NCBI GenBank assembly: GCA_029261675.1
Contig: JAJDBA010000309.1
Span: 1-35,924 of the forward strand
DNA from: Nitrospinaceae bacterium
GTDB lineage: Bacteria; Nitrospinota; Nitrospinia; Nitrospinales; VA-1
Direction of reading: 5' to 3'
Length of the DNA stretch: 35,924 nt
The notes beneath the pieces were generated by a model, which saw only the letters and a program-made list of their open reading frames with translations, was not told the DNA's origin and did not search any database. A program made the position numbers and the translations under genes. Below are positions 427 to 35,515 of this stretch, one piece after another. How positions within the stretch are numbered: position 1 is the stretch's first letter; each line of letters starts with the position of its first letter.

Positions 427-3400
427 TTAAAAATTATTGTATTCTTGGATTGTGGTGATGTCCAAATCCTCTTCTTTGAGCGCTTTAAGTGCCCCCAGCA
501 GAGCAGAGGCTCCCGAAATTGTTGTGCAGTAGGGTAGGTTTTGATTTAAAGAACCCCTCCTCATAGAAAATGAATCTTTGATAGCTTGCTCGCCAAATAC
601 TGTGTTAATCACCAGATTAATTTCACCTGACTCAATCGCTTCGACACTGTGCGGGGAACCCTCTTTAACCTTGTTGATTGATTCAACAGTAACTCCATTT
701 TTATTAAAATATTCTGCTGTTCCGCTGGTAGCCAGAATACGGTAGCCTAAATCCTGAAGCCCTTGTGCAATTTCGAGGGTTTTTGGTTTGTCAGAGTCTT
801 TAACACTTATAAAAGCCGTACCTTCCATAGGTAGTTTGATCCCCGTCGCCAATTGAGATTTTGCAAAAGCCCGACCAAAAGTTTTATCAATCCCCATAAC
901 TTCACCCGTTGATTTCATTTCCGGACCTAGGAGAACATCTACATCGGTAAATTTATTAAAAGGAAAAACCGATTCTTTGACTGCAATATGTGAAAATTTA
1001 ACCTCTTTGGTAAAACCAATTTCTTTTAAGCTTTTTCCCGCCATGACACGAGCGGCGACTTTTGCAAGAGGAACACCAATGGATTTACTAACAAATGGAA
1101 TAGTGCGGGATGCTCGAGGATTCACTTCTATAATGAAGACCTTATCGTTCTGCACCGCAAACTGGATATTAATAAGGCCAATTACATTAAGCTCTTTTGC
1201 CAAGGCACAAGTCTGTTTTTTTATTTCATCAATTGTTTCAGGGGCAAGGGAAAATGCTGGAAGGGAACATGCGCTGTCTCCAGAATGAATTCCTGCTTCC
1301 TCAATATGCTCCATCACTCCGCCAATAACTACGTCTTCGCCATCTGATATTGCATCAACATCTATTTCAATTGCATCCTCGAGAAAATCATCAATCAAAA
1401 CAGGATGTTCAGGTGATGCCTTGACCGCGTGTTGCATATAATATTCCAGGCGATTTTCACTGTAGACGATTTCCATAGCACGACCGCCTAGTACATAAGA
1501 GGGGCGTACTACAACAGGGTAACCAATCCTAGATGCTATTTCCTTAGCCTCAATATATGAAACGGCAATACCATTTTCGGGTTGTTTGAGATTAAGTTTA
1601 TCTAAAACCTCTTTGAAGAGTTCTCTATTTTCAGCTCTGTCAATGTCAGCCGGACTGGTTCCAATAATGGGTGCTCCAGCTTCCAGTAAGGATAAAGATA
1701 GTTTCAGAGGGGTCTGTCCTCCTAGTTGTACAATAATCCCTGTTGGTTTTTCCACGCGTACGATATGGAGAACATCTTCCAAAGTTACTGGCTCAAAATA
1801 GAGTCGGTCCGAGGTATCGTAATCGGGACTAACGGATTCGGGATTACAATGAACCCTGATGGTTTCAAACCCGTCTTCTTTAAGCGCAAATGATGCGTGG
1901 ACACAGCAGTAATCAAACTCAATTCCTTGACCGATCCTGTTGGGGCCACCTCCTATAATCATTATCTTTTTCTTCTGGGTGGATTCAGCCTCACATTCTT
2001 CTTCATAAGTTGAATACAGATATGGAGTAAATGCTTCAAACTCGGCACCACAGGTGTCAACCCTTTTGTATACTGGGAAGATATTAAGGCTATAACGACG
2101 TTCCCGTATGTCTTTCTCAGAGCAATTTAGAAGTCCTGCAAGATAGATATCTGACATACCATATTGCTTAGCTTTAATCAGGGTCTGCTTTTCTATTGAA
2201 TCCAGCGAATCAATCTTTTTTAGTTCCAGTTCAAAATCGATTAATGTTTTCAAATTATCAAGAAACCACGGATCAATACCCGTAAGTTGATGTAATTCCT
2301 CAACGGAAAATTTGCGACGCAATCCAGCAGCTACTTGCCACAACCGATCAGAAAAGGGAATGGATAATGCCGCTGTAAGTTTTTCTTTTTGTTGCTCCTC
2401 CGACAAACCCACATTATTCAGCTTGAAACGGAAGTCCTCCTCAAATCCATAACTGCCGATTTCCATGGATCGAATTGATTTCAGCAATGCTTCTTTAAAT
2501 GTTCGCCCGATAGACATTACTTCTCCCACAGATTTCATCTGTGTAGTTAGAATGGGCTCTGTTTGCTGGAATTTTTCAAAAGTGAAACGTGGGATTTTAA
2601 CAACACAATAATCAAGAGTAGGTTCGAATGAAGCTGGGGTCACCTGAGTAATATCATTTTTTATTTCATTCAACGAATATCCAACAGCTAATTTGGCGGC
2701 GATTTTGGCGATGGGAAAACCAGTAGCCTTTGATGCTAATGCGGAACTCCGTGAAACACGAGGGTTCATTTCAATTACAATCATATCCCCGGTTTCGGGG
2801 TTAGTTGCAAATTGAATGTTTGAACCACCAGTATCAACACCTATCTCTCGGATAATATCGATCGCGGCATTACGCATGACTTGATACTCTTTGTCAGAAA
2901 GAGTTTGAGCCGGAGCTACGGTAATGCTATCTCCTGTATGAATCCCCATCGGGTCAAAATTTTCAATGGAACAAATAATAACGACATTGTCATTGAGGTC
3001 GCGCATCACTTCCAGCTCATACTCCTTCCATCCAAGAAGTGATTTTTCGATGAGAACCTGATGAATAGGGCTGGATTGGAATGCATGCTCCACGAGAGGA
3101 ACAAACTCTTCTTCAGAATAGGCGATACTTCCCCCGGTTCCTCCAAGAGTGAATGAAGGACGAATGATAGCTGGGAACCCGGTTTCTTTGACGATGCTCC
3201 AGGCTTCTTCCAGTGAAACTGCCTGACCGCTGGGAGGAACCTTTTGTCCTATTTTAATCATTGCCTCTTTAAATAGGTTCCTGTCTTCTGCTTTTTTAAT
3301 TGACTCGACTTTAGCTCCGATCAATTCAACATTATATTTATCCAGAATGCCTTTTTCGGCAACAGCAAGAGCGGTATTTAAAGCAGTTTGCCCGCCCATT

Positions 3401-31522: not shown

Positions 31523-32458
31523 ATGAAAGACGCAGCAACACGCGATGCCTACGGCCAAACTTTGGTAGATATCGGGGCTAATACCGATATCGTTGTTCTC
31601 GATTCAGGAGTCAGTGACAGTACGCGGACGAAAAAATTTGGGCAGGCGTTCCCGGATCGGTTCTTTAATATGGGGATCGCTGAAGCCGATATGGTCTGTA
31701 CCGCGGCGGGACTGGCAACCACAGGCAAAATTCCTTTTGCCACAAGCTTCTCTTGTTTTCTACTTGGCAGAACGATGGATCAAGTTCTTGTCAGTTTGGC
31801 TTATTCGAACACCAATGTGACATTAGCAGGCACCCATTGTGGTCTTGCGGTGGGTGAAGATGGCCCAAGCGCGCAAATGATCGTCGATATCGCCTATACC
31901 CGCGCTATTCCTAATATGATTGTTATCCAACCTGCGGATTGGGAAGAAACCGTTCAAGCCACCAAAGCACTTGTAGACTACAAAGGCCCCGCATATTTTC
32001 GTTTGGGACGACCCAAAGTTAAAGGCATCTTCGATTCTTCCTATAAGTTTGAAATTGGCAAGGGCAGGGTCGTGAAAGAAGGTAGCGATCTGGTTATTTT
32101 TGCTACAGGAACCATGGTTCAAGAGAGCCTCGTAGCCATGGAGCAACTGGCAAATGAAAATATCAATGTGACCCTGGTCAATATATCGACCTTAAAACCC
32201 ATCGATCGTGAAATTGTAGTGGATCAAACTCGCAAACATGGCGCATTGATCACCGCAGAAGATCATAATATTATCGGCGGCCTTGGTGATGCCGTTGGTG
32301 AAGTTTTGCTCGACAATCAAATCGCCGTTCCGTTCACACGAGTGGCCGTTAAAGACCAGTTCGCTGAGACCGGAACCGGACCCCAGTTATATGAAAAGTA
32401 TGGATTGTCCCACAACCATATTGTCAAAGCCGTAAAAGACACCCTTAATAAGAAGTAG
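31523..32458 (+). CDS. transketolase, C-terminal subunit
   Basis: Partner of the preceding gene. The 311 residues hold the pyrimidine-binding domain (FPDRFFNMGIAEADMVCTAA with the catalytic Glu near residue 52; GTHCGLAVGEDGPSAQ) and the transketolase C-terminal domain (FATGTMVQESLVAMEQLA; GALITAEDHNIIGGLGDAVG). The DXS and pyruvate-dehydrogenase E1-beta families share this fold, but the preceding N-terminal half and the GEDGPSAQ motif support transketolase. Starts at ATG. Two small hairpins follow in the downstream gap, without T-tracts. Confidence 0.93.
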   Translation: MKDAATRDAYGQTLVDIGANTDIVVLDSGVSDSTRTKKFGQAFPDRFFNMGIAEADMVCTAAGLATTGKIPFATSFSCFLLGRTMDQVLVSLAYSNTNVTLAGTHCGLAVGEDGPSAQMIVDIAYTRAIPNMIVIQPADWEETVQATKALVDYKGPAYFRLGRPKVKGIFDSSYKFEIGKGRVVKEGSDLVIFATGTMVQESLVAMEQLANENINVTLVNISTLKPIDREIVVDQTRKHGALITAEDHNIIGGLGDAVGEVLLDNQIAVPFTRVAVKDQFAETGTGPQLYEKYGLSHNHIVKAVKDTLNKK

Positions 32459-32572
32459 TCCCAAATATATAGGGTAGAACCCATCTAAAGGCTGTATTCA
32501 GCCCCCTAAATCAAGCTCCAATTCCTAGTTGACATAATATATGTTATAGGAACCAAACAATTGCGCGATACC

Positions 32573-32600
32573 TTGGTTAAGACGGTCCTAGAAATATAAA
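32573..32600 (+). promoter_or_regulatory. candidate promoter for the TIR-like gene
   Basis: TTGGTT (32573-32578), a 16-base spacer and TATAAA (32595-32600), about 70 bases before the chosen start. The -35 is weak. A perfect TTGACA at 32529-32534 lacks a -10 at proper spacing. Confidence 0.35.
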
Positions 32601-32672
32601 TTTCGGGGCAAGAAAAATTAATGTGATGTTAAGATGTTTTAGTCAAAAAAATATTGAATGGAGTGCCAAACA

Positions 32673-33509
32673 ATGGCTAAAGGAACAAAGAAAGACTGCT
32701 TTATTATCATGCCTATTTCAGATCCTGATGGGTATCCTGAAGGTCATTTTGGTCATGTTTATGAAGATATTATAAAACCCTCATGCGAACTTTCTAATTA
32801 CAATCCAGTTCGCGCTGATGACGTTAAAGAAACGAATCTCATCCATCTAGATATACTCAAAAAATTAATAGAAGCCCCACTAGCAGTTTGCGACTTAAGT
32901 AATCGAAACCCAAATGTTTTATTTGAATTGGGTATTAGACAAGCTTTCGATAAACCAGTAGTACTTATCCAAGAAAAGGGTACTCCTAAAATTTTTGATA
33001 TAACACCTCTTAGAGTATTAGATTATCCAAAAGAGATGAAGTATCATGAAGTTCTGTCAATTCAGAAAGAACTTAAAGCTTCAATAGAAGCTACGGCAAG
33101 TGCAGAAAGTGATTCAACTAATATTAACTCAATAGTTAAGCTTCTTGCTCTAAGCTCACCCGCTCAAATCCCTGATCTAGAAAGTAATAAAGAAAGCATG
33201 GCTCTCGAATATCTCCAGGCAGAAATGAGAGATATGCGCAAAATGCTTGAAGCATCAATGCTGGAAGGTCGAAACCCTAATGGGAAAGGGGCTATAACTG
33301 CCATTGAATATGAAAGAATATCAAATGAAATTGAGAAACTGAACAGTAAAGTACTCCGCAGAAAAATGTCAGCAGACGAAAGGTTTTCGTCCATGCGTTC
33401 ACTTATGCGTGAAACAGAAGAGCTCATTCAAAATTGTGATGACAAGTCAGATCATATGCATTTTCGACGTCTTATGGAACGCATACACCGAGCACTATCA
33501 GAGATTTAA
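32673..33509 (+). CDS. TIR/nucleoside 2-deoxyribosyltransferase-like protein with coiled-coil tail
   Basis: 278 residues from the ATG at 32673, preferred over 32658 because GGAG sits nine bases before it. Residues 8-130 resemble a flavodoxin-like TIR/NDT-type domain: CFIIMPISDPDG (9-20), YEDIIKPSCEL, VRADDVKETNLIHLDI, and NRNPNVLFELGIRQAFDKPV (78-97), where Glu85 takes the place of the catalytic Glu of these folds. Residues 185-275 are charged helices, probably a coiled coil. Such domains cleave N-glycosidic bonds of NAD+ or nucleosides in several defence systems, but many relatives are uncharacterised. The gene looks more AT-rich than its neighbours, stands alone with its own flanking signals between housekeeping genes, and may be an insertion. 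Confidence 0.75.
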   Translation: MAKGTKKDCFIIMPISDPDGYPEGHFGHVYEDIIKPSCELSNYNPVRADDVKETNLIHLDILKKLIEAPLAVCDLSNRNPNVLFELGIRQAFDKPVVLIQEKGTPKIFDITPLRVLDYPKEMKYHEVLSIQKELKASIEATASAESDSTNINSIVKLLALSSPAQIPDLESNKESMALEYLQAEMRDMRKMLEASMLEGRNPNGKGAITAIEYERISNEIEKLNSKVLRRKMSADERFSSMRSLMRETEELIQNCDDKSDHMHFRRLMERIHRALSEI

Positions 33510-33537
33510 AATAGTAAGGCAATTCTCCTTTGCTATT
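33510..33537 (+). terminator. hairpin directly after the TIR-like gene
   Basis: AATAGTAAGG (33510-33519) pairs with CCTTTGCTATT (33527-33537) over ten positions including two G-U pairs, starting one base after the stop codon. A short T-rich stretch (ATTTTG) follows a few bases later. It is a plausible terminator, although the T-tract is poor. Confidence 0.45.
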
Positions 33538-33573
33538 GGAATTTTGATATGATCACTTCAGCCAATGATTCAA

Positions 33574-33589
33574 AAACCCGAGCGGGTTT
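33574..33589. terminator. symmetric AAACCC/GGGTTT hairpin between TIR-like gene and asnB
   Basis: AAACCC-GAGC-GGGTTT, a perfect 6-bp stem with A-runs before and a weak T-rich stretch after. It could act as a terminator in either direction or simply be a leader hairpin of asnB, whose ATG is 36 bases on. Confidence 0.4.
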
Positions 33590-33625
33590 GATTTCCCGAT
33601 AACTCCATTTTCCTTATCAAGTAAT

Positions 33626-35515
33626 ATGTGCGGCATAGCGGGTCTTCTCGATTTTGATGAAAATAGCCAACCTGGGAGTTCGGGTAAAATTCTCCGGTTA
33701 ATGCTGGATAGCATCCGGCATCGTGGCCCTGATGATCGTGGAGAAGAACTTATATCCAGTGAAGACGGCCCGACTCTCCATTTAGGTCATCAGAGATTCT
33801 CCATCATTGATCTTAGTCCCGGTGGCCATCAACCGATGCCCAACGACGACCAATCTCTCTGGCTTTCTACCAACAGCGAAATATATAACTACAGAGAACT
33901 GCGCGAAGAATTATCTGACAATTTCCGTTTTAATTCGCAATCAGACACGGAGGTTCTTTTAAAATCTTACGAACACTGGGGCCTGGATTGTCTGCAAAAA
34001 CTCCGAGGCATGTTTGCGTTTGCTGTATGGGATTCCAAAAAACAATCGCTGATTCTAGTGCGTGATCGACTGGGCATAAAACCTCTCTATTATCTATCCA
34101 CTGAAAAACAGTTTTTATTCGCTTCTGAAGTACGCGCCCTACTCGCTTCGGGATTATCGGATTCTGAAATAAACCCTACTGGACTCTATCATTACCTTTC
34201 ATTCGGGCATTTGAAATCCCCAAGCACCCTAATCGGCAATATTCAGGAACTCAAACCGGGTCATTATCTCATTGTTGACCGAGAAGGTAACTTTGAGGAA
34301 ACACGCTATTGGCATCCCTTGAATTCTTTGGAAGTGATTGAAAATGACGGTGAATCCATTCAGAACATCCTTCAGGATGCTGTAAGGTTCAGACAAGTCA
34401 GCGATGTTCCTATCGGTGCTTTTTTAAGTGGTGGCATTGATTCAAGCGCCATCGTTTCTCATATGGCGAGCATTTCAGACGAGCCGATAAACACACTCAC
34501 TATTGGGTTCAAAGAAAAAGAGTTTGATGAGTCTGAGCACTCAGCAGAAATATCGCGTTTGTTTAAAACGAAGCATCAGTTACTCACTTTAGATGAAGAA
34601 CAGTTGTTGGATGCCCTGCCCGCGGCAATCGGCGCCATGGATCAACCGACAATGGATGGGATTAATACGTTTCTTATTTCCCGTGCGGCTCAGGAAGCGG
34701 GATTGAAAGTGGTGTTGAGCGGATTGGGCGGCGACGAATTATTTGGTGGCTACCCCTCTTTCCGTCTTCTTCCGGAATTGCGTGCTCGGAAGACAATGGT
34801 AAAACAGTTGCCCAATTTTTTATTGCGGCTAGCTACTGGGATATTAAAAAAATCTTTTCCGTCTGATCAAAACAATAAAATCAAGCATTGGACAGAAGGA
34901 AAATTTAGCGGAGTGCATGAGTACTATTTGCTACGAGCTCTTTATTGCGAAGATCAAATTTTTGAATTGTTTGTTGACCCGACTTTGGCAGAAAAAGAAA
35001 TTCAAAAAGATTTCGAAGCGACCAGCGAATCGCTCAGTTATGAAAATCTCGATGGCGATTTTAATTTGATCTCTTATTTGGAAACCACTCATTATTTGCA
35101 GAACATGCTTCTTAGAGATACCGACATGATGAGTATGTCGCATCCATTAGAGGTGCGAGTGCCTTTCATGGATCATAAACTCGTTGAGCATATGTTCAGC
35201 ATGCCAACTCATCTTAAAAAGTTGTCTAAAACCCCCAAAGCTCTGCTGGTGGATTCGATGAAGCCTGCCCTACCCGATTCGATTGTGCACCGTAAAAAAA
35301 TGGGCTTCACACTACCCTTCGAACCCTGGATGCGCGGCGCAATGAAATCGGAAATGGAATCCGTTTTACTTTCTACTGTGCAGCCACTGCAAGATTTGAT
35401 TTCACAGGCGACGGTGGAGAGTATTTGGAAACAGTTTTTAGCAGGAAAAATATCATGGTCACGCCCTTGGGCTTTATATGTGCTCAAGCGATGGGTCGAT
35501 AAAAATCTTTCGTAA
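33626..35515 (+). CDS. asnB: glutamine-hydrolysing asparagine synthetase
   Basis: Amidates aspartate, or an aspartyl-like carboxylate in a modified pathway, using glutamine and ATP. The 629 residues start with the N-terminal nucleophile Cys2 (MCGIAG) and RHRGPDD near residue 31. The synthetase domain follows with the ATP pyrophosphatase loop SGGIDSS (268-274) and GLGGDELFGGYPSF near 369. The usual NGEIYNYRELR motif reads NSEIYNYRELR, so the oxyanion-hole Gly is Ser84, a rare change that might weaken glutaminase activity. The C-terminal region MSMSHPLEVRVPFMDHKLVE is typical of AsnB types found in surface-polysaccharide loci as well as true asparagine synthetase. Confidence 0.9.
   Translation: MCGIAGLLDFDENSQPGSSGKILRLMLDSIRHRGPDDRGEELISSEDGPTLHLGHQRFSIIDLSPGGHQPMPNDDQSLWLSTNSEIYNYRELREELSDNFRFNSQSDTEVLLKSYEHWGLDCLQKLRGMFAFAVWDSKKQSLILVRDRLGIKPLYYLSTEKQFLFASEVRALLASGLSDSEINPTGLYHYLSFGHLKSPSTLIGNIQELKPGHYLIVDREGNFEETRYWHPLNSLEVIENDGESIQNILQDAVRFRQVSDVPIGAFLSGGIDSSAIVSHMASISDEPINTLTIGFKEKEFDESEHSAEISRLFKTKHQLLTLDEEQLLDALPAAIGAMDQPTMDGINTFLISRAAQEAGLKVVLSGLGGDELFGGYPSFRLLPELRARKTMVKQLPNFLLRLATGILKKSFPSDQNNKIKHWTEGKFSGVHEYYLLRALYCEDQIFELFVDPTLAEKEIQKDFEATSESLSYENLDGDFNLISYLETTHYLQNMLLRDTDMMSMSHPLEVRVPFMDHKLVEHMFSMPTHLKKLSKTPKALLVDSMKPALPDSIVHRKKMGFTLPFEPWMRGAMKSEMESVLLSTVQPLQDLISQATVESIWKQFLAGKISWSRPWALYVLKRWVDKNLS

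Follow-up and report, generated by a model that had tools for sequence, protein, structure and literature searches.

The question raised by this locus is how a lone gene for a TIR/NDT-like protein came to lie between the transketolase and asparagine synthase (asnB) genes of a Nitrospinaceae bacterium, and what it does there. A preliminary description of the window (the whole stretch of DNA that was analysed, 35,924 nucleotides) had taken it for an acquired cargo gene, possibly a one-gene defence element that cleaves NAD+ or nucleosides and oligomerises through its tail.

Positions 32459–33625 are exactly the spacer between the stop codon of the transketolase C-terminal half (32458) and the start of asnB (33626). 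They contain one substantial plus-strand ORF and no other (Table 1), and no prophage or defence genes adjoin it in the window; the gene is indeed solitary. The second ATG, at 32673, would yield 278 residues. It is preceded by a GGAG at 32660–32663, 9 nt upstream, and is aligned with the start of the nearest relative, which is 68% identical; it is therefore the likelier start. Residues are numbered here in the 283-residue form, where E90 corresponds to E85 counted from 32673. The flanking genes had been described as tightly packed. This is true of the neighbours, with the transketolase halves 2 bp apart and asnB 9 bp from phzF, but not of the insertion site itself, which in relatives is a spacer of ~100–930 bp.

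Table 1. Coordinates of the gene, its neighbours and its sequence features in the window.
Feature	Position	Strand	Basis
Transketolase C-terminal half, upstream neighbour	31523..32458	+	Pfam PF02779, PF02780
26-bp transketolase-asnB spacer element, upstream edge of insertion	32528..32553	+	0–2 mismatches in genomes G000, G002, G006, G008
Inserted stretch, approximate	32556..33542	.	Limits of spacer similarity to relatives; exact ends inferred
TIR/NDT-like gene	32658..33509	+	ORF call; 283 aa from first ATG; phrog_3634 E 4.8e-32
Alpha/beta head, TIR/NDT superfamily fold, residues 12–149	32691..33104	+	AlphaFold2 blocks mostly pLDDT >90; Foldseek
NPNVLFELG motif, residues 84–92	32907..32933	+	Sequence; putative catalytic Glu90 codon 32925–32927
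Helical C-terminal tail, residues 179–282	33192..33503	+	Model secondary structure; poorly conserved across phrog_3634
Asparagine synthase asnB, downstream neighbour	33626..35515	+	Pfam PF00733, PF13537

Comparison with relatives shows that the gene is a real insertion between transketolase and asnB, here in a draft assembly of 351 contigs that is 81% complete. It is missing from all 29 other transketolase loci across the phylum. In 18 of these asnB still lies downstream of transketolase within the available sequence, at variable distances. Within the genus, the gaps lacking the gene measure 147 bp (G008, two contigs), 359 bp (G006) and ~813 bp (G002). As the spacer varies in relatives too, the site is a permissive spot. 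Among 77 genomes searched, this one alone has the full-length protein, and no ortholog was found in the 76 others of the phylum; the remaining matches were 27–37% identical and mostly partial. Similarity to the relatives' spacers stops near 32555 and returns weakly near 33543, in the final 80 bases before asnB. The acquisition of the gene as cargo is supported by this presence/absence pattern together with its mostly prophage-borne homologs. Close relatives have transketolase followed by asnB with the gene missing, and the fold (see below) is of the TIR/NDT kind, so that neither of the findings named beforehand as fatal to the earlier proposal turned up; matching composition was half of one of them, and codon usage is indeed host-like.

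Just after transketolase lies a near-palindromic 26-bp element, GTTGACATAATATATGTTATAGGAAC, which is found in four genomes of the genus and has its sole copy at this locus. It is possibly regulatory. An attachment-site duplication was considered and rejected, since the element belongs to the host locus and occurs there whether or not the gene is present. A second such solitary insertion was noticed in a different genus of the family, where another TIR-like gene (L010, 1483–2274; 28% identical) lies by itself next to mutL.

The composition scan gave a divided answer. The GC3 of the gene, 0.26, is the lowest among the long genes in the window, which makes its composition mildly unusual, but its codon choice tracks the AT bias of the host; composition was therefore rejected as proof of transfer. 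The hairpins said to bracket the gene are no better than those of shuffled sequences (z −1.1 and −0.9). Around the gene the coding strand yielded no terminator-like site, and the insertion showed neither convincing flanking direct or inverted repeats nor an Rfam match. An origin as an integron cassette was likewise rejected, there being no sign of it in the window and only a hint from the contig of the nearest relative, L014. There, a very strong DNA hairpin (2358–2507, z −8.4) precedes the relative and ends in GTTATGC, and the stop codon of the relative lies within GCATAAC (3357–3363); the contig has no copies of this heptamer other than these two. The pair recalls the ends of integron attC sites, but the downstream site does not fold. 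Positions 1–2339 of L014 hold several displaced Rhs C-terminal tips, separated by small genes. The contig is labelled as an Archaeoglobaceae bin, a doubtful assignment in view of Rhs-type content that looks bacterial.

The AlphaFold2 model of the protein, calculated from an alignment from which five record-derived rows had been left out, has a mean pLDDT of 84 and a pTM of 0.60. Both motifs named in the preliminary description are found in the sequence, CFIIMPI at residues 14–20 and NPNVLFELG within the head, and the tail is predicted to be all-helical, as proposed. In the head model the glutamate of the latter motif opens the helix that follows the fourth strand, as in the TIR/NDT superfamily, and it is invariant in 74 of 74 aligned members. 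The other invariant residues are M18, P19, Y26, H30, I62, C78, D79, N86, V87, G92, R94, F113, D114, Y123 and T146. The TIR/NDT fold is supported, and the solved structures nearest to the model belong to its NDT/DNPH1/MilB side: MilB, DNPH1 and NDT gave best TM-scores on target of ~0.65–0.74 in Foldseek, and the top 50 hits were all NDT/DNPH1/MilB entries, with no TIR NADase among them.

Sequence comparison places the protein in the phage family phrog_3634 of PHROGs v4, whose function is annotated there as unknown. Residues 10–230 match positions 2–227 of the 237-position profile, and seven test members all match over almost the whole profile too. Most members are found in phages or prophages, whereas the window copy lies alone in a chromosome. 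No Pfam or NCBIfam model scored above cut-off with the window protein; PF05014 (NDT/DNPH1) reached 13.4 bits, below its curated cut-off of 28.8. Sub-threshold Pfam matches among the 74 members were to NDT in 30 (at E 0.01) and to TIR in 9. The PADLOC TIR effector model PDLC00733, which is without a curated cut-off, matches 73 of the 74, with E 8e-6 for the window protein and down to 3e-16 in relatives. Profile searches of the PDB returned weak DNPH1/BlsM matches only, and a match to Ndc80 in a search with the single protein was dismissed as a chance coiled-coil hit.

At least 320 relatives are present on IMG/VR viral contigs, and tblastn found 54 phage records with relatives, including phages of S. 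aureus, Streptococcus, Klebsiella and E. coli. The nearest viral relative is 62% identical over residues 13–198, on a contig with HNH, capsid/protease and portal-type proteins. The nearest relative found, labelled as belonging to an archaeal bin, is similar over the whole length. Between it and the window gene pN is 0.22 against a saturated pS of 0.85, which indicates purifying selection on the protein.

The two parts of the protein are not equally conserved. Mean pairwise identity among the phrog_3634 relatives is 53% in the head and 15% in the tail. In the model of a P2-type member this head recurs, but the C-terminus is a small beta domain (~236–285, pLDDT ~90). Relatives in streptococcal phages (L048, 3998–4654) are 219 residues in total and lie near repressor and integrase genes, in the lysogeny region; their tail is much shorter, so tail length varies as well. 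With a constant head and a tail that is either helical or beta, the family looks modular, and the tail resembles an exchangeable sensor. The preliminary description had suggested oligomerisation as the role of the tail; its low conservation and two predicted folds speak for sensing no less than for assembly.

Of 86 loci with relatives, 37 read CI repressor, gene, integrase along a single strand, the median gaps being 9 and 4 bp; since many of these are near each other in sequence, the 37 are not a count of independent events. Pfam searches of the neighbours confirmed 39 CI repressors and 40 integrase N-terminal domains. One relative lies between the repressor and the integrase of a P2-like element on a Pantoea plasmid. 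According to Rousset et al. (PMC9122126), the CI-integrase slot of P2-related phages is a hotspot of antiviral systems; the relatives occupy exactly that slot, and the window copy has left it for its place between transketolase and asnB. The phrog_3634 family is not named in the passages of that paper that were consulted. Such tight packing with CI suggests that the gene would be transcribed with the repressor in the lysogen, as fits a superinfection gene. In one locus (L051, 5356–9230) the repressor and the relative are followed by a membrane-protein gene (~350 aa) and then the integrase, possibly a two-gene version.

Taken together, these findings lead us to a reading to which we give about an even chance: the window gene would be a stand-alone chromosomal copy of a prophage-type, single-gene, glutamate-dependent N-glycosidase that cleaves NAD+, senses phage through its tail and acts by abortive infection. 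The head would be an N-glycosidase of the TIR/NDT superfamily working through Glu90. The tail, an exchangeable module, would hold the head inactive until it senses a product of an invading phage, whereupon the heads would assemble and cleave NAD+ or, less likely, another ribonucleotide, and the infected cell would halt before phage production. In lysogens the gene directly follows the CI repressor and so would probably be expressed while the prophage is silent, in a superinfection-exclusion role. That it is a one-gene defence element is plausible, and a good hypothesis, from the repressor-integrase location of the relatives and because no partner gene recurs beside them. The data themselves show the insertion, the family membership, the invariant glutamate, the division into head and tail, the place of many relatives between repressor and integrase, and the purifying selection; catalysis, substrate, sensing and abortive infection are inferred.

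Two published one-gene systems offer a precedent for the proposed mechanism. SpbK of the B. subtilis element ICEBs1 is a TIR NADase that is switched on by the docking of its helical domain onto phage portal rings (PMC12847820). Like the window protein it is a one-gene, mobile-element-borne protein (~270 aa) with a helical module, but this module is N-terminal and the TIR domain C-terminal, the reverse of the order found here. Swarozyc, a DUF4062 TIR-like NADase, binds the portal with its C-terminal auxiliary domain (PMC13174449). It likewise consists of one gene whose TIR-like head, with a catalytic glutamate, is related to TIR and NDT, and it differs from the window protein in its tail. By analogy, the tail of the window protein would recognise a phage structure and bring the heads together. 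Membership of DUF4062 was rejected, as neither the window protein nor any of the 74 members matched this domain in Pfam.

The Pycsar/CBASS TIR effectors (PF10137, CAP12-PCTIR_TIR; PDLC00733) have the RADD...NPNV.ELG segment in common with the window protein, and their known substrate is NAD+, as PMC9122126 also states. The window protein differs in that no cyclic-nucleotide-binding domain was detected in it, and PF10137 scored below cut-off. As no nucleotide cyclase was found in the window neighbourhood or among the domains of the relatives' immediate neighbours, full membership of CBASS or Pycsar was rejected. A full Thoeris system was rejected as well: no ThsA lies next door, the neighbours being transketolase and asnB in the window and CI and integrase in the relatives.

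As to the substrate, TIR NADases and NDT-type hydrolases have a common fold and glutamate. In NDT and DNPH1 a tyrosine contacts this glutamate, whereas NADase TIRs usually have Phe or Ala there, and the Tyr versus Phe/Ala state is linked to tolerance of the 2'-hydroxyl (PMC11204291). At position 15, whose equivalence to this active-site position is by strand register only, Phe is found in 67 of 68 members and Tyr in none. This would favour a ribo-substrate, NAD+ or, as in MilB, CMP, and a deoxy-specific activity of the NDT/DNPH1 type is disfavoured by the same residue, placed by strand register. We rank NAD+ ahead of CMP, which the structural neighbours keep alive.

The alternative that survives best keeps the defence role and replaces NAD+ cleavage by a MilB-like ribonucleotide N-hydrolase, draining or editing the nucleotide pool through CMP or modified CMP. 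The window protein shares with MilB, DNPH1 and NDT (PF05014 and relatives) the fold of the head and the position of the glutamate in the ELG motif, and the best Foldseek match of the head is MilB itself (E 6.8e-4). A full-length viral homolog in BFVD bears the name CMP/hydroxymethyl CMP hydrolase, assigned automatically, and Phe15 would be compatible with such a ribo-substrate. The window protein differs from these enzymes in its sub-cut-off Pfam score, its long extra tail and the prophage context of its family: the gene is usually beside a repressor and not in a nucleotide-metabolism operon. Moreover, the TIR effector model matches nearly all members, and the similar-looking DUF4062 family, related to TIR and NDT, turned out to consist of NADases (PMC13174449). 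We regard this alternative as unlikely.

Improbable is a salvage enzyme for nucleotides or nucleosides, domesticated by the host for a metabolic role unrelated to phage defence. The NDT/DNPH1-type fold, the metabolic neighbours, the host-like codon usage and the purifying selection would all agree with it. Against it, the gene is missing at this place in all other genomes of the phylum, its relatives are mostly prophage genes, position 15 (by strand register) is Phe and not the Tyr of NDT/DNPH1, and the extra, fast-changing tail would be superfluous for such an enzyme.

Very improbable, too, is a ThsB-like signal producer making cyclic or base-exchanged ADP-ribose for an effector encoded elsewhere in the genome. 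ThsB is likewise a member of the superfamily, NDT-like active sites are known from some ThsB proteins (PMC11204291), and the membrane-protein gene of L051 adjoins a relative. However, no effector recurs as a neighbour, the commonest context being CI, gene and integrase with gaps of a few bases, and the window spacer holds nothing else. A prophage counter-defence protein that destroys nucleotide signals of host immune systems, as glycosidases of this fold could in principle do and as a phage-borne family might suggest, is hardly to be expected when the gene is most commonly packed with the repressor and not among early lytic genes, and when the window copy is kept in a bacterial chromosome without a surrounding prophage.

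Returning to the proposed NAD+-cleaving immunity enzyme, the insertion and the fold of the preliminary description are right and its defence role is plausibly so. What the analysis adds is that the window copy is a captured member of a common prophage family, linked to the repressor and equipped with exchangeable tails. More tentatively, there may be a large and still unnamed family of prophage immunity enzymes, each encoded by one gene linked to the repressor and joining a constant TIR/NDT head to an exchangeable sensor tail (helical or small beta domain), from which bacteria have captured bare copies into housekeeping loci. Our search of open-licence papers found no named prophage TIR family of this type and no activity or phage test on phrog_3634 members. 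Members are widespread, in phages of S. aureus, Streptococcus, Klebsiella and E. coli as well as in many P2-like prophages. They are annotated as hypothetical only, and the family makes a simple prediction. If its members were repressor-linked NADases with interchangeable sensors, part of prophage superinfection exclusion would be explained, and a natural series of sensor swaps would be at hand for finding phage triggers. The window copy shows that a gene of this kind can survive in a chromosome as solitary cargo, where a search guided by defence islands would overlook it.

Two observations concern E. coli. In the phage vB_EcoM-689R2 (L046, 2438–3199 and 3929–4846) a relative lies two to four genes from a second gene annotated as TIR-like. 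This relative occurs in 24 of 5426 E. coli genomes, one copy being split by an IS1 element.
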